A stretch of 64,000 bases of DNA from a virus, in IMG/VR virus record IMGVR_UViG_3300028569_002417, positions 1-64,000 of that record, one strand, 5' to 3'. A model generated the notes under the pieces. The model worked only from the letters and a program-made list of their open reading frames with translations, was not told the origin of the DNA and did not search any database. Positions 1,814 through 46,105 of the stretch are shown here, one piece after another. Each line of letters begins with the position of its first letter. The stretch's first letter is position 1. A program made the translations under genes and the position numbers.

Positions 1814-2227
1814 TTGTCATTATGTGGATATCATGCTGTTGGCACTGAATATCAAGGGACAAGTTTTCCGATGCCTTGGGGTGCAGCGTACATTACTGAA
1901 GAAATAAGGGATTTGAATTTAATGACTAAAACATCTATTTGTGAAAAATGCAAGATTTGGATTTACGATAGAGATTATGATACTGGATGGCAACTTAGGA
2001 TAAGGCTTGGTAATAAACCTCATCATGCATTTAGGCAAATTCAAAATCAAGTGCCAGATTTAGGAAAATACAATACTGGATATTCACAAACATATGTTTA
2101 TGATACAAAAGTTATTGCACATCATCTAAAAGGTGGAAGTCAAATAGAGGGATCTTATACGGAAGAACAAGTGAAAGAAATAAGAGGAAAGTATACAGAA
2201 TGGATTTGGAGTCAGTTGTATGATTAG
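1814..2227 (+). CDS. In-frame continuation after TAG, or separate gene with TTG start
   Basis: 137 codons directly after the TAG of the previous gene and in the same frame. The first codon is TTG and the first ATG comes only at 1871, so this is either a TTG-initiated gene, the downstream half of a gene broken by a nonsense mutation, or a readthrough product. The sequence has a C-E-K-C pair and many Tyr/Trp residues and looks like real protein. TAG serves as the ordinary stop of several nearby genes, so general amber recoding is unlikely. Function unknown. Confidence 0.45.
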   Translation: MSLCGYHAVGTEYQGTSFPMPWGAAYITEEIRDLNLMTKTSICEKCKIWIYDRDYDTGWQLRIRLGNKPHHAFRQIQNQVPDLGKYNTGYSQTYVYDTKVIAHHLKGGSQIEGSYTEEQVKEIRGKYTEWIWSQLYD

Positions 2228-2406
2228 TAAATCACTTCTGGTTCTTCTTCTTTAATATTCCAACATTTAGAAGAATCAGGAAAACTAACTGGATATCCCA
2301 TTTTCCATTCTAAACTGATTCCAAGTTCATGTCTACCAAAGGCATAATGTGTCATATTTTTGTTCCAGCATTTTTCTTGGCTGATATGATAAATGTTTCT
2401 TGTCAT
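2224..2406 (-). CDS. Small Trp/Cys protein, possible outlier of the CWS microprotein family
   Basis: 60 aa. Its ATG overlaps the TGA of the metallopeptidase gene upstream (ATGA), so translation is probably coupled. It has two K-C-W-N motifs (residues about 12 and 48) and I-S-L-E-W-K. The last resembles S-L-H-W-K in the microproteins at 3236 and 3426. No known function. Membership of the family is an inference from short motifs. Confidence 0.5.
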   Translation of the reverse strand: MTRNIYHISQEKCWNKNMTHYAFGRHELGISLEWKMGYPVSFPDSSKCWNIKEEEPEVIY

Positions 2407-2420
2407 GCTGTTTGTTCGCT
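2391..2420. repeat. 28-bp duplication, copy 1 (partner at 3226-3253)
   Basis: The sequence around 2393-2420 (minus: AGCGAACAAACA, CAT, AACAAGAAACAT-like) recurs at 3226-3253 with about two differences. It covers the C-terminal S-E-Q-T codons and stop of the metallopeptidase in one copy and of the microprotein at 3236 in the other. It marks a past duplication or gene insertion at this junction. Confidence 0.7.
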
Positions 2421-3176
2421 TTTTAATTCTTGCAAAAGATTAAAAAGTCTTTGTTGGAATTTACGCCAAAGTGTTGGTTTAGTTTTCCAATGCATCAAAG
2501 CCTCATAATCATTTCTGTTGATTATGCTACTGGTTATATCGTAATTTCCAGTTCTAAGAAATTCTTCTAATACTGATATTATTCTAGATTTATATTGTTC
2601 GTCTGTGTCATAAAATCTAAATTTAATATCAGACAAGATGCCCATTCCATAAGCATCAAATTCTTCTGGTGATTTATAATAAGAAGACACATTTCCCTGT
2701 GAAAAAAATTGTTTTCTTTCTGATGCTTTTTTTGCCCTATTTTCAGGATTTATTATTTGTGGATTAAGTTTTGGGTCGATTGCATGTATTGTTTCGTGAG
2801 ATAGTGCATTAACTATTGGTGGTATTTTTCTTCCGTTAGTATTAATGAAAAAGTTTCTGTTTTCTCTGAATATAATCAGAGATCTAATATTCATAACAAT
2901 TTCATCTGTCTTTGGATTATAATGTGCCATCCAATTATCGCCCAAGTCTTGAAGATAAACTGGAACTGATCTTCTTCCATCTTTTCTTTTAATTTCTCCG
3001 ACAAGAACTTTTTTTATAAAAGTTCTTGTATACAAATCATATAAATCTTCTTCAGAAGACTTTGAAATGACTATTTTCAATATTTTATCAGCGACTAAAT
3101 AAACATCTTCTTGTTGATCTTTATCAAGCTGCATGAACTTGCTTTCATTTATCATCCATTTTTTGAAATTTAACAT
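2403..3176 (-). CDS. Putative zinc metallopeptidase with capsid-targeting-like N-terminus
   Basis: 257 aa. The mid-protein motif L-S-H-E-T-I-H-A-I-D is an HExxH zinc-binding site followed by the D of a possible third ligand region, typical of gluzincin/metzincin-type peptidases. The N-terminus M-L-N-F-K-K-W-M-I-N-E-S matches the pattern F-x-x-W-hydrophobic-x-x-E of T4 internal-protein targeting peptides, with predicted cleavage after I-N-E. The start sits directly on a late-promoter-like CTAAATAATTT with no Shine-Dalgarno sequence. A role as a packaged, injected protease is inference. Two other tagged metallopeptidases occur at 6912 and 52343. Confidence 0.65.
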   Translation of the reverse strand: MLNFKKWMINESKFMQLDKDQQEDVYLVADKILKIVISKSSEEDLYDLYTRTFIKKVLVGEIKRKDGRRSVPVYLQDLGDNWMAHYNPKTDEIVMNIRSLIIFRENRNFFINTNGRKIPPIVNALSHETIHAIDPKLNPQIINPENRAKKASERKQFFSQGNVSSYYKSPEEFDAYGMGILSDIKFRFYDTDEQYKSRIISVLEEFLRTGNYDITSSIINRNDYEALMHWKTKPTLWRKFQQRLFNLLQELKSEQTA

Positions 3177-3187
3177 AAATTATTTAG
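3177..3187 (-). promoter_or_regulatory. T4-type late promoter motif abutting the start codon
   Basis: On the minus strand CTAAATAATTT is immediately followed by the ATG at 3176. In T4, transcription starts roughly 6-7 nt after TATAAATA, which would place the RNA 5' end at or next to this ATG. No AGGAG-like sequence is present between the motif and the ATG. Confidence 0.5.
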
Positions 3188-3235
3188 TTTGTTTATTCGT
3201 TTATTTTCCAATGATAGGAAAATGTATGTTTCTTG

Positions 3236-3442
3236 TTATGTTGTTTGTTCGCTTCTTTTCCAGTGAAGTGAAAATGAATGTCTCTTGGTCCAATGAAGGG
3301 CGCAAGATCTAAACATAGACCAAGAGCAAAACCAACTCATTGACCATGATTTGGATTTTCTATTTTGTCTTATAATAATAGACGTTGACCTATCGCCAGA
3401 CCAGCAATGATTCTCTGATACATTTTCAGTGTGTCTGTGCAT
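3236..3442 (-). CDS. CWS microprotein B
   Basis: 68 aa. Contains H-C-W-S-G-D-R-S (residues about 12-19), nearly the same as W-C-W-S-G-D-I-S in the microprotein at 8890. S-W-S-M-S-W and S-L-H-W-K follow. The start lies inside the end of the preceding gene (3426-3680), a 17-nt overlap. Rich in Ser, Trp, His and Arg; no signal peptide. Family function unknown. The C-terminal S-E-Q-T-T is shared with the metallopeptidase next door through a short duplication. Confidence 0.6.
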   Translation of the reverse strand: MHRHTENVSENHCWSGDRSTSIIIRQNRKSKSWSMSWFCSWSMFRSCALHWTKRHSFSLHWKRSEQTT

Positions 3443-3680
3443 TTTCTTTCCTATCTAAACAACTGCTTTTTGAACTATCTTTCCAGTGAAGAGATATTTT
3501 TACATCATGTATAATTTTCAAATTCCAGTTAGCAGATCTGTTTATATCAAATATATTTGATTCAGAATAATGTAAAACACCATGATCAGATCGACATAAT
3601 GTGTCGAAACTAAACTTAGAAAAAGAAATAAATCCCGTGAAAGGGAAGCATGACGATAAATTATTTCTTTTGAATATCAT
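3426..3680 (-). CDS. CWS microprotein A (MIFK type)
   Basis: 84 aa. Begins M-I-F-K at an ATGA overlap with the stop of the 3677 gene. It is less Trp-rich than its neighbours but carries I-S-L-H-W-K-D near residue 62, matching S-L-H-W-K in the next gene and I-S-L-E-W-K at 2224. It is translationally coupled on both sides. Function unknown; grouped with the array by position, start motif and the SLHWK motif. Confidence 0.5.
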   Translation of the reverse strand: MIFKRNNLSSCFPFTGFISFSKFSFDTLCRSDHGVLHYSESNIFDINRSANWNLKIIHDVKISLHWKDSSKSSCLDRKENAQTH

Positions 3681-3913
3681 GACTTAAAGCTTCTCTGCCA
3701 GACTTTTGAATCGGGATTTTGCTGGTAGGTCCATTCGCACCCTGTTGCTTCGAGCATTACTACATGAGCAATGCTTTCCAATTCTGTCTGATACTGATTG
3801 GCATCATCATATCTTAAGGTGTCTTCGGCTTTTTCAAGAGCCTCATGTCGATCATTTGCAATCACATCAATCGTGTGTGTTTGCGTTGACGTAATCTTAA
3901 CAGTGTACTTCAT
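3677..3913 (-). CDS. Small DpnD/PcfM-like protein
   Basis: 78 aa from the ATG at 3913, preceded by GGAG with good spacing; an upstream TTG in frame is a poorer start. The N-terminal half (M-K-Y-T-V-K-I-T, then I-D-V-I-A-N-D, E-A-L-E-K-A-E-D) follows the beta-strand/helix pattern of small DpnD/PcfM-like proteins found on plasmids and phages. Their role is unknown. Its stop overlaps the next ATG (ATGA), so it is embedded in the microprotein operon. The family call is tentative. Confidence 0.55.
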   Translation of the reverse strand: MKYTVKITSTQTHTIDVIANDRHEALEKAEDTLRYDDANQYQTELESIAHVVMLEATGCEWTYQQNPDSKVWQRSFKS

Positions 3914-3924
3914 CTTACTACTCC

Positions 3925-4062
3925 TCAAAAAATCATATCATTCCAAGGATAAGAACCAATTATTCTAAACGATCTGAAATATCCACTATCACATCTGCCA
4001 AAACAACAGATGTATCCTTTGTTCAATCTGCTCAAAGGGAGAGAATTTATTTTGAATATCAT
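3925..4062 (-). CDS. CWS microprotein D (MIFK type, 45 aa)
   Basis: 45 aa, starting M-I-F-K at an ATGA overlap with the TGA of microprotein C. Contains Y-I-C-C-F-G-R-C and a single Trp. It lacks the SWSW repeats, so it may be a divergent or decayed member. Its 3' end overlaps the ribosome-binding site (GAGGAG) of the 3913 gene. It is supported only by the overlap architecture and shared start. Confidence 0.4.
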   Translation of the reverse strand: MIFKINSLPLSRLNKGYICCFGRCDSGYFRSFRIIGSYPWNDMIF

Positions 4063-4250
4063 ATTTCGCCACCAAATTTAGACCAAGAATCATCATTGGT
4101 CCAAGACCAAGATTCTGTTCTGGAATTATACCAAGACCAAGACCTAGACTTAGCCCACATGCTCGACCATTGATCATATGGCCTAGACCAAGACCTAGAC
4201 ATAAAACACCAAGATCTACTAGACCTTTCCCAAAATATTTTCAAGATCAT
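4059..4250 (-). CDS. CWS microprotein C
   Basis: 63 aa: M-I-L-K start, S-R-S-W and S-R-S-W-S-W repeats, and a C-terminal G-G-E-I stop. Residues about 27-48 are almost identical to part of the protein at 6280 (shared R-S-W-S-W-Y-N-S-R-T-E-S-W-S-W), backed by a 60-bp DNA duplication with 3 mismatches. The stop overlaps the ATG of microprotein D. A GGTGA upstream of the ATG is the likely ribosome-binding site. No known homologous domain that I recognise. Confidence 0.6.
   Translation of the reverse strand: MILKIFWERSSRSWCFMSRSWSRPYDQWSSMWAKSRSWSWYNSRTESWSWTNDDSWSKFGGEI
4117..4176. repeat. 60-bp duplication, copy 1 (partner 6314-6373)
   Basis: These 60 bases match 6314-6373 with 3 mismatches and encode the shared R-S-W-S-W-Y-N-S-R-T-E region of the microproteins at 4059 and 6280, on the same strand and in the same frame. 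It is a recent duplication or gene-conversion tract. Confidence 0.85.
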
Positions 4251-4271
4251 AGATCACCATTAAACTCAGAC

Positions 4272-4445
4272 TTAGAACTTATGCCAAGACCTAGACCAAG
4301 ACCTAGACACAAACATGGACACAGACATAGTGCTAGAATTAGCCCACAGTCTTGACCAAATTGACCAAGACACAGACCAAAACCAAGGTCTAGACCAACA
4401 TCTAGAATAATTATCAACATAAAAAAATCTTTGCGATCTTATCAT
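4272..4445 (-). CDS. CWS microprotein E
   Basis: 57 aa. Start M-I-R-S overlaps the stop of microprotein F (ATGA). Has S-R-C-W-S near residue 14, followed by six further Trp residues in Ser/Arg context. It ends H-K-F 21 nt before microprotein C. The E-F-N-G-D-L-stop typical of family C-termini is present in another frame there, so an indel has probably replaced its original tail. Confidence 0.5.
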   Translation of the reverse strand: MIRSQRFFYVDNYSRCWSRPWFWSVSWSIWSRLWANSSTMSVSMFVSRSWSRSWHKF

Positions 4446-4594
4446 ATTTCACCATTATGATAAACAAGTGAATACCTAAACTCAGAACCAGACCAAGACT
4501 TACACCAAGACACAGACCAAAACTCATACCCAGACCAACATCTAGACACAGACCAAGGGTCAGAATGCTTGCACCCAAATGCTTTTAATGTCAT
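4442..4594 (-). CDS. CWS microprotein F
   Basis: 50 aa: start M-T-L-K, V-S-R-C-W-S-G near residue 16-22, then S-V-S-W-C-K-S-W-S, and C-terminal H-N-G-E-I with its TGA overlapping the next ATG. The start overlaps the stop of microprotein G. The A-A-T-G-G-T-G-A bases coding N-G-E also provide the GGTGA that probably serves as ribosome-binding site for the next gene. Too short for routine ORF calling. Confidence 0.55.
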   Translation of the reverse strand: MTLKAFGCKHSDPWSVSRCWSGYEFWSVSWCKSWSGSEFRYSLVYHNGEI

Positions 4595-4773
4595 AATTCA
4601 CCATTAAACAAAAAAGACCTATCTGAAGACAAGGACAAGGACAAAGACCAAGACCAAGACCAAGTCACAGACAAAAACCAAGACCTAGCACCAGACTCAG
4701 ACCAAGAATTAGATCTAGACTTAGATTTAGACCAACATTTAACAATTGAAGAACTATTGGTTTTGATGATCAT
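4591..4773 (-). CDS. CWS microprotein G
   Basis: 60 aa: M-I-I-K start, V-K-C-W-S-K near residue 11-16, a S-W-S-W-S-L-S-L-S-L-S tract and C-terminal L-F-N-G-E-L. Both ends overlap neighbours by ATGA. The SW tract is encoded by repeated TCT-TGG hexamers, so repeat slippage probably changes its length over time. Confidence 0.55.
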   Translation of the reverse strand: MIIKTNSSSIVKCWSKSKSRSNSWSESGARSWFLSVTWSWSWSLSLSLSSDRSFLFNGEL

Positions 4774-4892
4774 GTATTATCATACCAATGTTTAGGTCGA
4801 AAACAAGCCATGTTCCAAGACCAAGATCTTGTCCAACGCTGAAGCACAGACCAGCATCTAGATGACCTGTTACGATTGTTTTTGAAGATCAT
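4770..4892 (-). CDS. CWS microprotein H (40 aa)
   Basis: 40 aa, the shortest member: M-I-F-K start, S-S-R-C-W-S near residue 10-15 and T-R-S-W-S-W near 22-27. Its TGA overlaps the ATG of microprotein G and its ATG overlaps the TGA of microprotein I. It lacks the NGE tail. Confidence 0.5.
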   Translation of the reverse strand: MIFKNNRNRSSRCWSVLQRWTRSWSWNMACFRPKHWYDNT

Positions 4893-5101
4893 ATTTCACC
4901 ATTAAACAAAGAATTATTAAACCAAGACCAAGACTCATATAAAGACCTAGACCAATTCTCAGAATCAGCCATAGACCGATTCCCACACCTAGAGTAATAA
5001 ACAGACCAAGACCAAGAGTTAGAGCAATAAACAGACCAAGACCAAGAAATAGATCTAGAGTTATGCTTAATGCGATTGTGACCAACTGTTTTGAAAATCA
5101 T
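4889..5101 (-). CDS. CWS microprotein I
   Basis: 70 aa: M-I-F-K start; repeats S-I-S-W-S-W-S-V-Y and S-W-S-W-S-V-Y-Y-S-R-C; ends S-L-F-N-G-E-I. It shows an internal duplication of the SWSWSVY unit. Coupled by ATGA to microprotein J upstream and H downstream. Confidence 0.55.
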   Translation of the reverse strand: MIFKTVGHNRIKHNSRSISWSWSVYCSNSWSWSVYYSRCGNRSMADSENWSRSLYESWSWFNNSLFNGEI

Positions 5102-5262
5102 AAATCACCATTAAACAAAGTCATGCAATCTTCTGAGGATTTAACTATGCTCTGTGACCAACATAGAGATTCTCCCCAAGACCACGAATTGTTCCACCAG
5201 ACTGGAGATCCCCACAGATTGTGTGCAAAAGTTCTACAACAACATTCGCCAGTCCTGAACAT
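5098..5262 (-). CDS. CWS microprotein J, first of the array
   Basis: 54 aa starting M-F-R-T-G-E-C-C-C-R. Contains V-W-W-N-N-S-W-S-W-G and S-L-C-W-S-Q, ending T-L-F-N-G-D-L. An AGAGGA upstream of the ATG is a proper Shine-Dalgarno site and the gene follows 20 nt after the acetyltransferase-like gene. This suggests J is the entry point for ribosomes into the coupled array. Confidence 0.55.
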   Translation of the reverse strand: MFRTGECCCRTFAHNLWGSPVWWNNSWSWGESLCWSQSIVKSSEDCMTLFNGDL

Positions 5263-5282
5263 AGATCGAATCCTCTATGCAA

Positions 5283-5726
5283 CTACCGTAGAAACTTAAC
5301 CCATCTTTGCTTGGGTTCTGTTGGCTGATCCGTTCTATTAATGACCCCGTCATTTCTTTTCCATTGACCACCATTTGTTACTGCTTCCATAATCCAACCA
5401 CTTGCTTTGAGACTGGTGCCCGGTTCGCTTTGTAATATGTAGGTTTGTATTTTGGTGTAACCCATTTCTTTAGCAATCCGAGCGCAGGCACCATACAGTT
5501 TTGAACAAGCGTTAGGTGTGCCATCAGTGCATAGTCTTGCCACTTCAAGAGTTAAACCATCATCTGAAGCACGAGCAACTGGTCTGCCACAAATAGCAAT
5601 CCCCACATAGATATCATCTTTAGTTAAACCTATGCTAAACTTATGTCCAACGCTAGTTTTATGATGTCGATGCCATTGTAAAACAATTTCATTTGCTTTT
5701 TTTAAGACGATAGGAACAATCTTCAT
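5283..5726 (-). CDS. GNAT-like acetyltransferase-related protein (XF1762 type)
   Basis: 147 aa. Features of the small phage/plasmid XF1762-like family: an N-terminal helix with H-R-H-H, strand V-G-I-A-I-C-G-R-P-V-A-R, L-E-V-A-R-L-C-T-D-G, and N-A-C-S-K-L-Y-G-A, which resembles a GNAT acetyl-CoA-binding fold. Substrate unknown. It immediately precedes the CWS microprotein array in one transcription unit. The family call comes from recalled similarity. Confidence 0.65.
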   Translation of the reverse strand: MKIVPIVLKKANEIVLQWHRHHKTSVGHKFSIGLTKDDIYVGIAICGRPVARASDDGLTLEVARLCTDGTPNACSKLYGACARIAKEMGYTKIQTYILQSEPGTSLKASGWIMEAVTNGGQWKRNDGVINRTDQPTEPKQRWVKFLR

Positions 5727-5747
5727 TGCAATCCAATCTCTGCTATT

Positions 5748-5834
5748 TTACAGTATAATTAGGTCATTCCCTGCGTAAACTGTATTGATATAGTCCTTGC
5801 GAGTCTTTTTCTCAAAGACTATTTGTGTGTTCAT
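5748..5834 (-). CDS. Very small ORF (28 aa)
   Basis: 28 codons with an ATG at 5834 directly after the TGA of the 5837 gene; the GGTGA overlapping that stop gives a ribosome-binding site. The peptide is charged, with F-E-K-K-T-R-K-D-Y and hydrophobic L-I-I-L at the end. It could be a leader peptide or chance; only its placement in the operon supports it. Confidence 0.3.
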   Translation of the reverse strand: MNTQIVFEKKTRKDYINTVYAGNDLIIL

Positions 5835-5836
5835 CG

Positions 5837-6223
5837 TCACCACCAGCTACTATAAAAAACATAAAGACCATCACCTATTGCTCTTTTAGACTGATAGATG
5901 AAATCAATATCATTTTCAATCGATTTACTATCAGGAGGATTATCGCCAAAGAAAAAACCTTCTGTGTTAGGAAGATTACCTCCTCTGATATCTTTTTCTA
6001 AATCTTCCAAATCTTCTAGCGTAAGCACAACATAATCACAATTGAACTCTCCTGTCCCACCTTTTTTATAATAAAGTTTTTTCATCCATCCATGAAGATC
6101 ATGATGCTTTCTCCAGTAAAATAATTGATTTTTATCGAGTCCTTCCACAAAGACTGGATTTGTGTCTTTCAGTTCAACAACATCTTCTTTTTTTACTGAA
6201 TAAACAAACATGTCAAGTCCCAT
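5837..6223 (-). CDS. Conserved phage protein, MGLDM family
   Basis: 128 aa. M-G-L-D-M at the N-terminus, F-Y-W-R-K-H near residue 35, D-Y-V-V-L-T-L-E-D-L, and G-F-F-F-G plus Y-Q-S near the C-terminus are hallmarks of a widespread small phage/bacterial family. That family is sometimes misnamed phosphoglycerate kinase; its function is unknown. AGGAG lies 7-8 nt before the ATG. It is part of the minus-strand small-gene operon. Confidence 0.65.
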   Translation of the reverse strand: MGLDMFVYSVKKEDVVELKDTNPVFVEGLDKNQLFYWRKHHDLHGWMKKLYYKKGGTGEFNCDYVVLTLEDLEDLEKDIRGGNLPNTEGFFFGDNPPDSKSIENDIDFIYQSKRAIGDGLYVFYSSWW

Positions 6224-6279
6224 AAGACACTCCTATATGCCTGACCAAAACATAGACCAACTCCAAGGCATGGACCTAT

Positions 6280-6492
6280 TTAATCGTTTTCATTGTTCCA
6301 AGACCAAGACTCAGTTCTAGAATTATACCAAGACCAAGACCTAGACATAGCCCACATGTTCGACCATTGATCAACACGAATCCACCATGTGGAACGAACA
6401 TGCCTGTATCCATCAATAGTGCGCCAATTAAACATCATATCAAATCTAGACCATTCTCTAGATTTATTATGCGTATTTGCTCTAAGAATCAT
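6280..6492 (-). CDS. CWS microprotein K (MILR type; alternative start at 6549)
   Basis: 70 aa from M-I-L-R-A-N-T-H, the same start as the microproteins at 8708 (M-I-L-R-A-N-S) and 8890 (M-I-L-R-E-N-S). An in-frame upstream ATG at 6549 would add 19 hydrophobic-leaning residues. It then has W-S-R-F-D, F-N-W-R-T, S-T-W-W-I-R and a C-terminal R-S-W-S-W-Y-N-S-R-T-E-S-W-S-W shared with microprotein C. It therefore links the two subfamilies (MIFK/SWSW and MILR/CWS). Function unknown. Confidence 0.6.
   Translation of the reverse strand: MILRANTHNKSREWSRFDMMFNWRTIDGYRHVRSTWWIRVDQWSNMWAMSRSWSWYNSRTESWSWNNEND
6314..6373. repeat. 60-bp duplication, copy 2 (partner 4117-4176)
   Basis: 57 of 60 bases match 4117-4176. 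It lies inside microprotein K. Confidence 0.85.
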
Positions 6493-6582
6493 AATGATTC
6501 CAACTGGTAAATCACTCAAAGCGAAAAATGTCACAGCCCTGAATTTCATCGAAATCAGAACTATGACATTACATTAAACCAA

Positions 6583-6594
6583 GAAATTATTTAG
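6583..6594 (-). promoter_or_regulatory. T4-type late promoter motif
   Basis: CTAAATAATTTC on the minus strand overlaps the end of the 6587-6820 gene and lies 34 nt upstream of the ATG at 6549. It would drive microprotein K and the genes below it. Confidence 0.4.
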
Positions 6595-6820
6595 ACCTTA
6601 TCTTCTTTTTCTGCTGATTCTGAGGATATCTGGATTGCTGAACGCTTTGCGATGAGTACTTAGGCGATTGCGGTCTTTGTTGAATATATCTGCTGCCAAC
6701 AGATTGCTGATTGCTTCTTGAACTAGCCGACCGGCTAGATGTGGAAGATGGTCATGTTGGGCAATTAGGACTTGACTGTGTCATAACCAAAATACTTGCT
6801 AAAAAACTTAAATTCAACAT
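6587..6820 (-). pseudogene. Secreted Ser/Gln-rich protein interrupted by in-frame TGA
   Basis: ATG at 6820 with AAGGAG 7-8 nt upstream. The first 22 codons give a signal-peptide-like sequence ending N-C-P-T, then TGA at 6752-6754. The same frame then stays open for 54 codons rich in Ser, Gln and Arg, with S-R-S-basic tails, to TAA at 6587. Reading TGA as Trp gives one continuous protein. TGA is the normal stop of many neighbours, so this is most simply a nonsense mutation or a readthrough site. The downstream composition argues that it was coding until recently. Confidence 0.5.
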
Positions 6821-6911
6821 TGTAAACTCCTTATCATGGTGACCCGACATTATCATAATCGGGGGAAAATAAACTTGCAACTAGATTCCAGCCATTTACC
6901 AAAGAAAATAA

Positions 6912-7871
6912 TTAAGCTTGTGCTGTTCTTTGACCGCCAGCATCATTTCTAACAACGGTATTGATATGGTCAGCCATAAATCTGATAAAATTATGTAATT
7001 TAGATTTATCATTATTATTATAATAATGTAAATAAACTTGCCTCAAGTCTTGTACATCCACACTATAATTTTCTGGATTCATTATCAAATCCTTGAGAGC
7101 CTCACCAAAATTTTCTTTCGTCAATATCTCACCTGTTTTCTTGTACCAATTGCGCTTTAGTTCACCCAAACGAACACCAATTTCGGCACTATCAGTGAGA
7201 TATTTTAAGCCGGGATCGTCATTAGAAAGACTCGACTGAAACAACATGTTTTGAGTTGAATGAGATAATTCGTGACGCAAAGTTCTCAAATTTGAACGAT
7301 TATTTACAACACAAAACTTTTGACCACCGGGTATTGAAGTGCAAAAACCTGTACTACCCGGTTCGGCACCGGGATACTTATTTGGGTCCATAAAAACAAC
7401 TGGAATAGGTTTGTCTAATTCACTAGTTCTCATGTCGGCAGCAGAAGGGATTCTGGGCGCTTCAAAGTCACCAATTTTATCAGGAGAATCATAAGCCTTG
7501 GCTGACATGTCACGCACTTTTTCGTAATCTTTTCCATATTCAGGAGAAATAGCTTCACTTGGTCTTATCATCTGAACATCATTGAAATTGATGTCCAATC
7601 CAGTTTTATTTTTGATGTGATCAATAACAGATTGAATAACTGGACTTGTTGCAGACCTGACAATTGCTGGTTTCGGTGCCAAATCTACATCCATACGCTT
7701 AGGAGACGCACTACCCAATGCCAAAGCCGCACCAATACCTCCAATAATTCTTCTGACCCTGCCACTCATATCCTTGAAGAATTCGTCGTATTGAACCTCT
7801 GTCAGCATTTGAGAGAAAAGTTCAGGATCACGATTCTCAAGAAATTTAACGAATGTAAGATTAGTTTGCAT
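6912..7871 (-). CDS. Putative zinc metallopeptidase with capsid-targeting-like N-terminus
   Basis: 319 aa. L-R-H-E-L-S-H-S-T near residue 200 is an HExxH zinc site. N-terminus M-Q-T-N-L-T-F-V-K-F-L-E-N-R fits the F-x-x-F-L-E targeting pattern, and a second short hydrophobic Gly/Ala segment (residues about 39-52) follows. C-F-C-type cysteines (G-F-C-T, K-F-C-V) flank the presumed active-site region. The start abuts a TAAATATTTTC motif without a ribosome-binding site. It may act on host or phage proteins after injection; that is inference. Confidence 0.65.
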   Translation of the reverse strand: MQTNLTFVKFLENRDPELFSQMLTEVQYDEFFKDMSGRVRRIIGGIGAALALGSASPKRMDVDLAPKPAIVRSATSPVIQSVIDHIKNKTGLDINFNDVQMIRPSEAISPEYGKDYEKVRDMSAKAYDSPDKIGDFEAPRIPSAADMRTSELDKPIPVVFMDPNKYPGAEPGSTGFCTSIPGGQKFCVVNNRSNLRTLRHELSHSTQNMLFQSSLSNDDPGLKYLTDSAEIGVRLGELKRNWYKKTGEILTKENFGEALKDLIMNPENYSVDVQDLRQVYLHYYNNNDKSKLHNFIRFMADHINTVVRNDAGGQRTAQA

Positions 7872-7882
7872 GAAAATATTTA
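7872..7882 (-). promoter_or_regulatory. Late promoter-like motif abutting start codon
   Basis: TAAATATTTTC followed directly by the ATG at 7871, with no Shine-Dalgarno sequence. It is a weaker match to TATAAATA than the TAAATAATT examples. Confidence 0.4.
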
Positions 7883-7886
7883 CATG

Positions 7887-8402
7887 TCAAGCAGCATAAA
7901 TTTCCAGAAATTTGTTTATATCTGCAAGAAGATTAATATTTTGCTCTACTTTTTCTTTTTCCCAATTCCACCATTCTATTTTCAGTAATTGATCTATTAC
8001 ATTTTTTTCAAATCTGTATCTAATTATTTTTGCAGGATTTCCTGCAACTATAGAAAAAGGCGGCACATCTTTAGTTATAACTGCCCTAGCACCAACTATA
8101 GAACCATGACCTATAGTCACGCCTCCAAATATCATTGCTTCAGTTCCAATCAAACAATCAGAACCAATTATGATTGGACCCCTGTCCTTTCCTATTGGAT
8201 AATTGGAATTAGGATAATGTGATCTAAATCTGAAAGTGCTTACAGTAGGATGATGCATACAAGCATGATCTATCGGTCCACCACACAAGAATGTCACTCT
8301 CCTAGCTATTCCTGAATAATTTCCAACAGTTATCTGGTAATTAGGGAAATGCATAATACAGTCTGGCGCAATACTCGAAAGAGTACCAAGAGTTATTCCC
8401 AT
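7887..8402 (-). CDS. Hexapeptide-repeat acetyltransferase (CatB/vat-like)
   Basis: 171 aa left-handed beta-helix enzyme. I-G-S-D-C-L-I-G, V-T-I-G-H-G-S-I-V-G-A-R-A-V-I-T-K-D-V and I-V-A-G-N-P-A-K near residues 85-140 are typical of xenobiotic/sugar O-acetyltransferases using acetyl-CoA. The N-terminal hexads (T-L-G-T-L-S, I-T-V-G-N-Y-S-G-I) complete the domain and H-H-P near residue 50 fits the usual catalytic loop. Its ATG overlaps the end of the 8393 gene by 10 nt. Probable role: O-acetylation of a surface sugar. The family call is firm. Confidence 0.8.
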   Translation of the reverse strand: MGITLGTLSSIAPDCIMHFPNYQITVGNYSGIARRVTFLCGGPIDHACMHHPTVSTFRFRSHYPNSNYPIGKDRGPIIIGSDCLIGTEAMIFGGVTIGHGSIVGARAVITKDVPPFSIVAGNPAKIIRYRFEKNVIDQLLKIEWWNWEKEKVEQNINLLADINKFLEIYAA

Positions 8403-8614
8403 GACTCACTCTCAAAAGAGAATTCTTCAAAAGGAAATATTTTTTCTTCAATGAAACAATGACAAAAAACTGAATTCATGTCAAATGTTCCACACAAAAT
8501 AATTCTTTGTGACCAACCTCTAGAATAACAAAAATCATTCCAATTTGAATGATATAAATCTTTCTTAAAAAGAAAGATTGACCAAAAATTATTTGCAGAA
8601 CCAATGGTTTTCAT
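8393..8614 (-). CDS. Small Trp/Cys/Phe protein, possible CWS family member
   Basis: 73 aa from the ATG at 8614, which has AGGCGGG upstream; an earlier in-frame ATG at 8638 lacks one. Contains N-N-F-W-S, H-S-N-W-N-D-F-C-Y-S-R-G-W-S and V-F-C-H-C-F, resembling the Trp/Cys spacing of the two MILR microproteins just upstream. It overlaps the acetyltransferase start. Family membership is tentative. Confidence 0.5.
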   Translation of the reverse strand: MKTIGSANNFWSIFLFKKDLYHSNWNDFCYSRGWSQRIILCGTFDMNSVFCHCFIEEKIFPFEEFSFESESWE

Positions 8615-8707
8615 GTGTATCCCGCCTAACAACTGCAAAATAAAATTCTGCCCCTATTATATCATAAAAAAAACGAAAATCAACAGTTTTATAATATGAT
8701 TGGGGCT

Positions 8708-8872
8708 TCATTGATCGAAAGACCAACAAGCAGAAAAAATGTAACCACGATGGTGTTCAGATATAATGGTAAATCCAGAGAAAGAACAATCGTCATTCCA
8801 TGACCTAGAAACTGGTTTGGTCAAAGACCAACAACAATTATTGTTGTAGTCAGAATTTGCCCTGAGAATCAT
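8708..8872 (-). CDS. CWS microprotein L (MILR type)
   Basis: 54 aa. Aligns end to end with the next gene upstream: M-I-L-R-A-N-S, C-C-W-S (residues 13-16), V-S-R-S-W-N-D-D-C-S-F-S-G-F-T-I (21-36), and A-C-W-S-F near the end. GGAG lies 8-9 nt before the ATG. Four Cys and four Trp in 54 residues, no signal peptide. Not found by simple ORF-length cut-offs. Function unknown. Confidence 0.65.
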   Translation of the reverse strand: MILRANSDYNNNCCWSLTKPVSRSWNDDCSFSGFTIISEHHRGYIFSACWSFDQ

Positions 8873-8889
8873 TTATAAACTCCATATGA

Positions 8890-9051
8890 TCATTCGTTGT
8901 AAGACCAACACGAACAACAAATGTGACCATTCTGAACAGAGAAAATTGTAAATCCAGAGTAAGAGCAATAATTGTTCCATGATCTGGAAACCGATATATC
9001 TCCAGACCAACACCAGTTGGTGTGATTGTAAGAATTTTCTCTAAGAATCAT
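8890..9051 (-). CDS. CWS microprotein M (MILR type)
   Basis: 53 aa: M-I-L-R-E-N-S, W-C-W-S-G-D-I-S (13-20), V-S-R-S-W-N-N-Y-C-S-Y-S-G-F-T-I, and I-C-C-S-C-W-S-Y. About half of its residues are identical to microprotein L, and CWSGD is shared with microprotein B at 3236. The paired, conserved spacing of C-W-S, S-R-S-W-N and C-W-S is strong evidence for a real coding family rather than a chance ORF. Confidence 0.65.
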   Translation of the reverse strand: MILRENSYNHTNWCWSGDISVSRSWNNYCSYSGFTIFSVQNGHICCSCWSYNE

Positions 9052-9067
9052 TAATATTACTCAATTT

Positions 9068-9583
9068 TCAATATTTGGATCGCACCAAGTCAATCTCTGG
9101 GCGAAAATCTCTTCCACCGTAATCCTCTGGTCTTTTTCCCAATTTCTCTATACTCCAATAAACCTGATCGATCTTTTTATCATACCAAGTATCTTCTCTT
9201 CTAAGATTTCTCAAGAATAACCCTTGATCAGGTCTATTACCAGTGTGACGATTAACTGCACTCAATTTATTTGGATGTATTTTTTCCACAAGCAAATTAT
9301 ATAATGTTATAATACTGAATTGAAAATCTAACATCTTTCTTGCATCACGATTTGCATAAAAAAATAAAGACTGCACAATTTTATCACGCTGCATAGCCTC
9401 CCAATCCCAAGGCAAACTAGCAAAAGACTTTACATAATTTTTTGAAAATCCCTCTCCTTCATCACTCTCATTCAGCCATTCTGCAAAAGAAAATTTATTT
9501 TCTTTAACGCAATTTGGAACTGTTCTACCACCTTTCTTTTTCATTCCTATTTGCTTATAGCCTTTCCAACAAGCCTCATTCAT
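9068..9583 (-). CDS. Protein with N-terminal CWKGYK module and FAEWLNE cleavage-like site
   Basis: 171 aa. Residues 1-27 (M-N-E-A-C-W-K-G-Y-K-Q, then G-M-K-K-K-G, V-P-N-C-V-K-E) recur almost unchanged in the protein at 23602. It is a basic, two-Cys module seen in many T4-like phage proteins. It is followed by F-S-F-A-E-W-L-N-E-S, a targeting-like motif with predicted cleavage after L-N-E. The remaining 130 residues are unrecognised, Trp/Tyr-rich and charged. Likely a head-internal protein (inference). It leads the operon containing microproteins M and L. Confidence 0.6.
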   Translation of the reverse strand: MNEACWKGYKQIGMKKKGGRTVPNCVKENKFSFAEWLNESDEGEGFSKNYVKSFASLPWDWEAMQRDKIVQSLFFYANRDARKMLDFQFSIITLYNLLVEKIHPNKLSAVNRHTGNRPDQGLFLRNLRREDTWYDKKIDQVYWSIEKLGKRPEDYGGRDFRPEIDLVRSKY

Positions 9584-23566: not shown

Positions 23567-23603
23567 AAAATGCCCTGATATTTATTTTTCAGGGCATTTT
23601 TTT
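23567..23603. terminator. Bidirectional rho-independent terminator
   Basis: 12-bp stem AAAATGCCCTGA / TCAGGGCATTTT (23567-23578 and 23589-23600) with a 10-nt loop and T-runs on both strands, between the convergent genes at 23231 and 23602. Confidence 0.85.
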
Positions 23604-24000
23604 AGCATTTACATTTCCAGACTCTTAGTGCTGCTCTTTGTTTGCTGTTTGGGTCATTCCTGCTTTTTGCTGTACCAGCTTTACACATCCTTGCACAGAA
23701 TGATTTTCTTCTTGCTTGTGTCTTCTTAGACATTTTTTTTACGCCACCGCTACGTTCAGCTTCTCTTTTTGTTTCAATGCCAGCATGAATTCCAAGTTTT
23801 TTGGCATAAGATGGCTTCAAACCACCTTCTGGATGATTCTTTTTTGAGTTATATCCCTTAAATGGTTTTTCTTTAGATTCTCTGATATCAACCCATTCTG
23901 CAAAAGAAAGGCGAGATTCTTTAACACAATTTGGCACTGTTCTACTACCTTTCTTTTTCATACCGACTTGCTTATAACCTTTCCAACAAGATTCGTTCAT
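23602..24000 (-). CDS. CWKGYK-module protein with DUF6321-like basic C-terminus
   Basis: 132 aa. The N-terminal 27 residues nearly equal those of the protein at 9068 (M-N-E-S-C-W-K-G-Y-K-Q-V-G-M). Then L-S-F-A-E-W-V-D-I-R-E-S, with predicted cleavage after I-R-E. The C-terminal domain has H-P-E-G-G-L-K-P, R-R-K-S-F-C-A-R-M and R-A-A-L-R-V-W-K-C, matching the small basic phage DUF6321-type domain, probably nucleic-acid binding. AGGAG 6 nt before ATG. Confidence 0.7.
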   Translation of the reverse strand: MNESCWKGYKQVGMKKKGSRTVPNCVKESRLSFAEWVDIRESKEKPFKGYNSKKNHPEGGLKPSYAKKLGIHAGIETKREAERSGGVKKMSKKTQARRKSFCARMCKAGTAKSRNDPNSKQRAALRVWKCKC

Positions 24001-44857: not shown

Positions 44858-46105
44858 TTATTCTTTTCTTATTGCCTGATAAAGATTGTCTGTATCAACA
44901 GCTTTGAAGAGTGATTCGCATCCACTGCTAAATTTAGTTGATGGATCTCCTTCTCCAATCATGCCATTAACGCTCTTCCACCAATTTGTTTCTTCCTTGG
45001 TGACTTTTTCATTTTTACTATGATTTTTCTTGCCTGATTTTAAGTTGCGAAGTTTTTCAAAATCATGATGTGTGATCTTGCCATCTGACTTGCCTTTTGG
45101 GCCTGAAACATCCAACTTCTTTTGGCCACCCTTAAGCATTTTCTTCATCTTATTCATTTTGCCAGATCCTTCTTCATCTCCTCCTCCGCAACCCATCTTC
45201 TTTTTGTTATACATCATTTTCTTGCTATACATCATTTTCTTTTTGTTCTTCTTTTTGCCATAATGACGAGATTCTGTTTGCTCTTCGCCTTCATCGTCAT
45301 GGTCAAAACTTCTTTCGCCATCTTCGTCTTCGTCGCCATGGTGCATGTGCATTTTTTTATCTTCGTCTTCATCACCGTATTCGTCTTCGTCTTCATCACC
45401 ATCTTCGTCTTCGTCTTCATCACCATCTTCGTCTTCGTCTTCATCACCATCTTCGTCTTCGTCGCCATGGTGCATGTGCATTTCGCCATCTTCGTCTTCA
45501 TCACCGTATTCATCTTCGTCTTCGTCTTCGTCTTCGTCTTCATCGCCATGGTGAAGGCGCATTTCTCCATCTTCGTCTTCGTCTTCATCTTCATCGCCAT
45601 GGTGAAGGCGCATTTCTCCATCTTCATCGCCATCTTCATCTTCATCGCCACGGTGAAGGCGCATTTCGCCATCTTCGTCTTCGTCTTGATATTCTTGGCG
45701 AGGCATATCTTCATCTTCTTCCATTTCTGAGAAGATTTTTTGACCAGCCTTGATAATCTGTTCATTCTCACACATGCTACATTTTTGTTTGGCCATCTTG
45801 TGCATTATTTGACCACATTTGGAACAAACTGAAAGATCTTTTTTCTTCTTACCTTTTCTGCTCTTATGAGGCTTATGATCTTTTTCTTCAACATCGACAT
45901 CAACATCTGGCTCATCTTTTTTCTCTGCTGGTTCAACGAGATCAGAATCGCCTTTCATCTTCTTTTTCTTCTTTTTCTGCATAGCACCTGATTCGTCAAA
46001 ACCGAACTGTGACTGGATGCCAAGATTAGAATGCCTGCCCAAACCAAGATTGAAGCTTGGAAGAATAGATTCATTCATAATCTTCCAGTTTTTATAAGAT
46101 AGCAT
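44858..46105 (-). CDS. Tagged, extremely acidic repeat protein with zinc ribbon
   Basis: 415 aa. M-L-S-Y-K-N-W-K-I-M-N-E-S resembles the targeting leader, cleavage after M-N-E. Then K-K-K-K-K-M-K, a zinc ribbon (C-S-K-C-G near 93, C-S-M-C-E near 107), and about 150 residues of D-E-D-E-D repeats punctuated by M-R-L-H-H-G. A basic K/M/G-rich region follows. Acidic head-internal proteins or scaffold cores often look like this. The plus-strand frames here (Phe/Val-rich) are shadows. Confidence 0.65.
   Translation of the reverse strand: MLSYKNWKIMNESILPSFNLGLGRHSNLGIQSQFGFDESGAMQKKKKKKMKGDSDLVEPAEKKDEPDVDVDVEEKDHKPHKSRKGKKKKDLSVCSKCGQIMHKMAKQKCSMCENEQIIKAGQKIFSEMEEDEDMPRQEYQDEDEDGEMRLHRGDEDEDGDEDGEMRLHHGDEDEDEDEDGEMRLHHGDEDEDEDEDEDEYGDEDEDGEMHMHHGDEDEDGDEDEDEDGDEDEDEDGDEDEDEYGDEDEDKKMHMHHGDEDEDGERSFDHDDEGEEQTESRHYGKKKNKKKMMYSKKMMYNKKKMGCGGGDEEGSGKMNKMKKMLKGGQKKLDVSGPKGKSDGKITHHDFEKLRNLKSGKKNHSKNEKVTKEETNWWKSVNGMIGEGDPSTKFSSGCESLFKAVDTDNLYQAIRKE
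45316..45700. repeat. Trinucleotide-type Asp/Glu codon repeats
   Basis: Imperfect tandem repeats of TCTTCGTCTTCATCACCA-type units encode the D-E-D-E-D-G blocks. Units vary in number between G-E-M-H/R punctuation, consistent with slippage. Confidence 0.85.

Follow-up and report, generated by a model that had tools for sequence, protein, structure and literature searches.

A tandem array of tryptophan- and serine-rich microprotein genes joined by stop/start overlaps in a phage genome

Clusters of small phage genes are of a known kind, and such a cluster can be a takeover module: the 26-gene host-takeover module of the Bacillus phage SPO1 consists of densely packed, mostly small genes, for many of which no function is known, and its members are described as early gene products, several of which are toxic to the host (PMC6873191). 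Pairs of co-directed genes that share 4-nucleotide (nt) ATGA stop/start overlaps and undergo termination-reinitiation have likewise been described (PMC6728339, PMC10666635), and short overlaps are a condition for translational coupling in bacteria and archaea (PMC10666635). Catalogued phage small proteins are, like those considered here, shorter than 100 amino acids (aa) and mostly of unknown function (review PMC11323111). Here we describe a dense array of such genes in the first 64 kb of a 225,527-base virus record (IMG/VR record IMGVR_UViG_3300028569_002417, referred to as G000; this stretch of 64,000 nt is called the window). In contrast to the SPO1 module, the members of the array form one family with shared anchor residues, stop/start overlaps and shuffled heads and tails. 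Unlike in the described ATGA pairs, the overlap recurs from paralog to paralog, and the bases that encode each tail also provide the ribosome-binding site of the next gene; unlike the catalogued small proteins, the family has no match in PHROGs, Pfam or NCBIfam. As far as could be established, a paralogous, coupled and head/tail-shuffled array of this type is new.

The array comprises ten open reading frames (ORFs) of 40-84 aa plus a DpnD-like gene, all on the minus strand and running from position 5262 down to 3236, as an earlier reading of this DNA (the original prediction) had it. That prediction described the genes as linked almost without gaps by ATGA overlaps, and we indeed find exact 4-nt overlaps at seven junctions, that between the DpnD-like gene and the ORF beginning at 3680 included; of the remaining junctions, 4272/4250 is a gap of 21 nt and 3442/3426 an overlap of 17 nt, and 11 nt separate the DpnD-like ATG from the gene before it. 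The proposal that the bases encoding the end of one member double as a GGTGA ribosome-binding site for the next was borne out as well, since the ends NGEI, NGEL, NGDL and GGEI encode GGTGA or GGCGA upstream of the following ATG. Chance ORFs do not keep such an architecture: the longest chain of linked ORFs of 40-85 aa has six members, compared to at most three in 1000 dinucleotide shuffles, and 13 ORFs of the linked type were observed against a mean of 2.9 and a maximum of 8 in the shuffles. Two parts of the prediction needed correction. The array is not limited to 3236-5262, because four further members (zeta, gamma, beta2 and beta) lie outside this range, where another ATGA stop/start overlap joins a 257-aa gene to zeta. 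A search of the whole 225 kb with a family profile (hidden Markov model, HMM) found members at 2224-9051 only, and the family thus occupies a single locus. The DpnD-like gene is present, but its likeness to DpnD/PcfM (PF14207), which concerns this gene only and is weak and N-terminal, stays below threshold (15.2 bits vs. the Pfam cut-off of 25 bits), and the gene is not a member of the microprotein family. The features are listed below; omega denotes the ratio of nonsynonymous to synonymous change, and L005, L128, L132 and L285 are related IMG/VR contigs.

5098..5262, minus strand: alpha (MFRTGECCC..., 54 aa), which opens the dense array, with NGDL end and ATGA overlap; orthologs in L005, L128 and L132; omega 0.07 for the window vs. 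L128.
4889..5101, minus strand: MIFKTVG... microprotein, 70 aa; family HMM E 1.4e-6, with a model that includes the MIFKTVG sequence.
4770..4892, minus strand: theta (MIFKNNRNRSSRCWS..., 40 aa); omega 0.10 vs. L005; the L128 copy has a GTG start and an exchanged tail.
4591..4773, minus strand: MIIKTNSSSIVKCWS... microprotein (the MIIKTN member), 60 aa; L005 counterpart reduced to a 14-codon ORF.
4442..4594, minus strand: MTLKAFGCKH... microprotein, 50 aa; family HMM E 7.8e-6.
4272..4445, minus strand: MIRSQRFF... microprotein, 57 aa; weak in the family HMM (E 0.07).
4059..4250, minus strand: iota (MILKIFWERSSRSWC..., 63 aa); 84-nt match to gamma (93%); omega 0.19 vs. L005.
3925..4062, minus strand: kappa (MIFKINSL..., 45 aa); ortholog in L132, omega 0.44.
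3677..3913, minus strand: DpnD/PcfM-like gene, a conserved neighbour embedded in the array; PF14207 E 0.021, below cut-off; orthologs in L005, L128, L132 and L285.
3426..3680, minus strand: eta (MIFKRNNLSSCF..., 84 aa); omega 0.21-0.28 vs. relatives.
3236..3442, minus strand: delta, 68 aa, CWS at residues 13-15; omega 0.24-0.44; tandem duplicate in L285.
2224..2406, minus strand: zeta (MTRNIYHISQEKCWNK..., 60 aa), the most conserved member; ATGA overlap with the upstream 257-aa gene; omega 0.09-0.11; family HMM E 3.4e-10.
6280..6492, minus strand: gamma (MILRANTH..., 70 aa); second half an in-frame copy of iota.
8708..8872, minus strand: beta2 (MILRANSD..., 54 aa); family HMM E 2.7e-15.
8890..9051, minus strand: beta (MILRENSY..., 53 aa); omega 0.08-0.50; six related loci.

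The microprotein ORFs are genuine protein genes. Orthologous members of the window, L005, L128 and L132 were aligned by protein and scored in all frames by the Nei-Gojobori method. In six phage-pair comparisons of 414-520 codons, the proposed frame contained no stops and had an omega of 0.26-0.34, while the other two sense frames gave values of 0.67-1.53 with 20-80 stops. The original prediction had named two outcomes that would point to a noncoding satellite, namely no conserved reading frame in related phages and substitutions spread equally over the codon positions; we found instead that the frames are kept and that substitutions concentrate at third positions. The first antisense frame also had a low omega (0.34-0.40), but with 24-32 stops, and its third positions coincide with those of the proposed frame, which accounts for the value. 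A Gly/Leu-rich protein from the +1 frame as the true product was rejected (omega 1.05-1.53, with stops). Alpha, theta and zeta have the lowest single-member omegas (0.07-0.11); since counts per gene are small and some synonymous distances large, it is the pooled figures that carry weight. Furthermore, in each of four phages the predicted starts pair with the 16S rRNA tail (Shine-Dalgarno pairing) more strongly than ATGs taken at random (p 3e-4 to 5e-7), which together with the constraint on the proposed frame identifies the array members as protein genes. The composition of the microproteins resembles what other phage genes give when read in the +2 frame (S 11.6%, W 3.0%, C 5.4%); an origin by out-of-frame reading of ordinary genes was considered and rejected, as the only ORFs that alternative-frame translations matched were read from the same DNA or its orthologs.

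Aligned members begin with M-I-x-[KR]-x-N-S-x-S-x-x-x-C-W-S, continue with S-x-S-W and a variable stretch, and end in S-x-x-W-x-x-x-[IL]. The recurrent anchors are C13-W14, the S-x-S-W near residue 24 and a Trp five residues from the C-terminus; the enrichment of W14 (p 2e-14) and of W(-5) (p 1e-12) is optimistic, because motifs guided part of the choice of sequences and some of these are related to one another. Members contain 9.2% W, 19.1% S, 7.5% R and 4.2% C, compared to 1.3, 6.5, 4.4 and 1.5% in the ordinary genes of the phage; they contain 7.5% N, are depleted in A, V, E and D, and carry a net charge of +4.5 per 100 aa. A search of the members for transmembrane stretches found none (no 19-residue Kyte-Doolittle window above 1.2), and a transmembrane or lytic peptide was ruled out for lack of a hydrophobic stretch. 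The members are soluble, mildly basic, Trp/Ser/Arg/Cys-rich proteins of about 40-84 aa that belong to one phage family.

Relatives were sought via the Mom-like neighbour of the array, beta, zeta and DNA patterns, and the family was found on 13 IMG/VR contigs, the record of the window included. The closest relative, L005, is syntenic; L128 with a near-identical group, L132 with L131, and L285 are further removed, and divergent carriers are L080, L282 and L283 (record G005) and L181 and L281 (record G006). All hits of a first scan with a window-derived pattern that read through in frame were Trp/Ser-rich members in divergent phages, which lends partly independent support to homology; a later, looser DNA pattern also collected chance frames. 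The family was not found among the annotated phages of INPHARED, and no annotated phage matched the region at the DNA level. The scans of 257 Gb of bacterial and archaeal genomes gave zero and then nine hits, with no credible family match; the nine looked like chance, being short frames that mostly overlapped ordinary genes. The claim that the family is undescribed has so far held: the best matches of 46 members to Pfam, NCBIfam and PHROGs were at chance level (E 0.013, 0.022 and 0.022), five microproteins (zeta, beta, MIFKTVG, delta and eta) had no match among the PADLOC defence-system profiles, a PDB profile search gave none for the microproteins, and we found no description of such a family in the open-access literature, which leaves room for a description elsewhere. 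The neck (head-tail adaptor) protein of the phage is closest to that of an uncultured huge phage of 595 kb (LR756511; 44% identity), in which the array is absent.

Two neighbours of the dense array are the following.

5283..5726, minus strand: Mom-like DNA-modification protein, a cargo gene adjoining the array; phrog_1384 E 7e-38.
5837..6223, minus strand: 128-aa DUF5845-like protein, a conserved neighbour and syntenic marker; PF19163 E 0.0013, below cut-off; relative in the Limnohabitans phage DC31.

The array is remodelled by duplication, in-frame exchange of heads and tails, and loss. The stretch from the DUF5845-like gene to delta holds ten members in the window, eight and a remnant in L005, five in L128 and eight in L132. 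DNA matches between different members lie in the same frame in 173 of 179 local matches, a count to which the repeated TCTTGG hexamer contributes, although some exchanges are clear. In its second half gamma is a copy of iota (84 nt, 93%), theta of L128 combines its own head with the tail of epsilon (54 nt, 94%), and two adjacent L005 genes have an identical 54-nt head and then diverge. Positions 3018-3062 of L005 hold a 14-codon relic of the MIIKTN member with the ATGA overlaps kept at both ends; the GTG-start theta of L128 also keeps its overlaps. Delta is duplicated in tandem in L285. In G005 (L283 10300-14000; record 76411-79766) a DUF5131 gene is split, with profile positions 1-26 and 127-243 about 3 kb apart and microproteins in between, and its halves are fused in frame to a microprotein-like tail on one side and a head on the other; the G005 array appears to have been inserted into the DUF5131 gene.

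Other lineages also have 4-nt overlaps, many of them in L281 and L283 and further ones in L132. We envisage that the array genes are transcribed together and that translation proceeds as a relay, in which terminating ribosomes would restart at the overlapping ATG, aided by the site inside the preceding tail; members would then be made in linked amounts. Each tail segment would bring along the ribosome-binding site and the overlap for the next gene, so that any head could be joined to any tail with the chain unbroken. Since the restart signal sits in the tail, members could be lost, duplicated or recombined without silencing downstream genes. One may go further and regard the locus as a diversification system, in which heads and tails would be exchangeable cassettes whose in-frame recombination yields new chimeric host-interaction proteins within an unbroken polycistron that can relocate into ordinary genes; this is possible, and we consider it rather doubtful.

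With regard to function, on which the original prediction was silent, the explanation that we tentatively rate best is that of a coupled, rapidly remodelled set of microproteins that probably serve as host-takeover or counter-defence factors. Each would bind a host factor through exposed Trp, Arg and Tyr residues, and the fast turnover of members would track changing host targets. Hints in this direction are the restriction of the family to phages, the lack of a transmembrane segment, the adjacent Mom-like gene of an anti-restriction type and, by sequence reading, cytosine methyltransferase-like genes that adjoin the array in G005. Several points weigh against it: AlphaFold models of two members were uninformative (predicted local distance difference test scores of 50 and 43), the evidence from accessory neighbours such as Mom is circumstantial, and the low complexity that the members have in common could suit a non-specific role in bulk rather than specific binding.

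The last point leads to low-complexity condensate or scaffold proteins with loosely constrained sequences, which would act in bulk, e.g., by organising phage or host nucleic acid. The aromatic and Arg residues would be stickers and Ser, Asn and Gly spacers (W 9%, S 19%, R 7.5%, N 7.5%, charge +4.5 per 100 aa), the low AlphaFold confidence fits disorder, and the composition is kept despite high sequence turnover; the recurrent Trp and Cys positions and the omegas of 0.07-0.11 in zeta, theta and alpha, however, point to specific constraint, and we regard this explanation as unlikely. Head and tail anchors common to all members would also suit subunits of one heteromeric complex whose stoichiometry is set by coupled translation, but relatives differ in copy number between 5 and 10 and exchange members freely, which a fixed complex would not easily tolerate and which makes this decidedly unlikely. 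A conserved N-terminus, a variable Ser/Cys/Trp-rich middle and tandem copies recall precursors of ribosomally synthesized and post-translationally modified peptides, with the head as leader and the middle as core; the C-terminal end is conserved as well, however, the 225-kb record contains no radical S-adenosylmethionine protein (PF04055), and among the neighbours we noticed neither lanthipeptide nor YcaO enzymes, at which no profile search was aimed, so that we deem such precursors very improbable. We give next to no credence to a noncoding satellite of TCTTGG hexamers with incidental long open frames, for although the window is dense in TCTTGG/TCTAGG repeats and members use TCT for 68% of their Ser codons (32% in other genes), the codon-position and Shine-Dalgarno tests contradict it and G006 members lack such hexamer tracts.

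The Mom-like gene is present in L005 and absent at the corresponding place in L128 and L132, and its product is about 90% identical to copies in L006-L008, whose neighbour genes show no evident resemblance to those of the window; this suggests transfer. Shortly after the G005 array, the reverse strand of L282 (9835-12687) carries three consecutive, similar, putative C5 cytosine methyltransferase genes (SLCSGIEAASVAW...), recognised by reading only. HExxH motifs (HETIH, HELSH, HEATH), as in zinc peptidases, occur in the products of 2403-3176 (minus), 6912-7871 (minus) and 52223-52993 (plus), none of which has a Pfam match. Their N-termini (e.g., MLNFKKWMINES, NFSNWLQIEE) resemble what we take to be T4-type capsid-targeting sequences, and the proteins may hence be packaged into the virion.

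Other repetitive or modular genes were observed. The minus-strand genes 9068-9583 and 23602-24000 have a common N-terminal module (MNE[AS]CWKGYKQ[IV]GMKKKG[GS]RTVPNCV) and different remainders. At 140997-144509 the record G000 (L002) encodes two long proteins side by side, which have collagen-like GPQGxQG repeats and start almost identically, and the 415-aa product of 44858-46105 contains a long tract of DEDEDG/HHGDEDEDG repeats. The window starts with a short repeat tract (2-121; plus-strand reading HQHQKLHQHQKL), which is followed by a 210-aa gene; in L005, APEV/PTPEPEVA repeats adjoin the ortholog of that gene.

Small phage genes have mostly been treated one by one, as unknowns. The present family can be traced as a whole from phage to phage, and the ways in which it changes are visible: members are duplicated, heads and tails are exchanged in frame, an internal deletion leaves the coupling intact, and one array sits inside another gene. 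The array is a test bed for the invention of small proteins by phages, and it supplies defined candidates for host-target and counter-defence screens.
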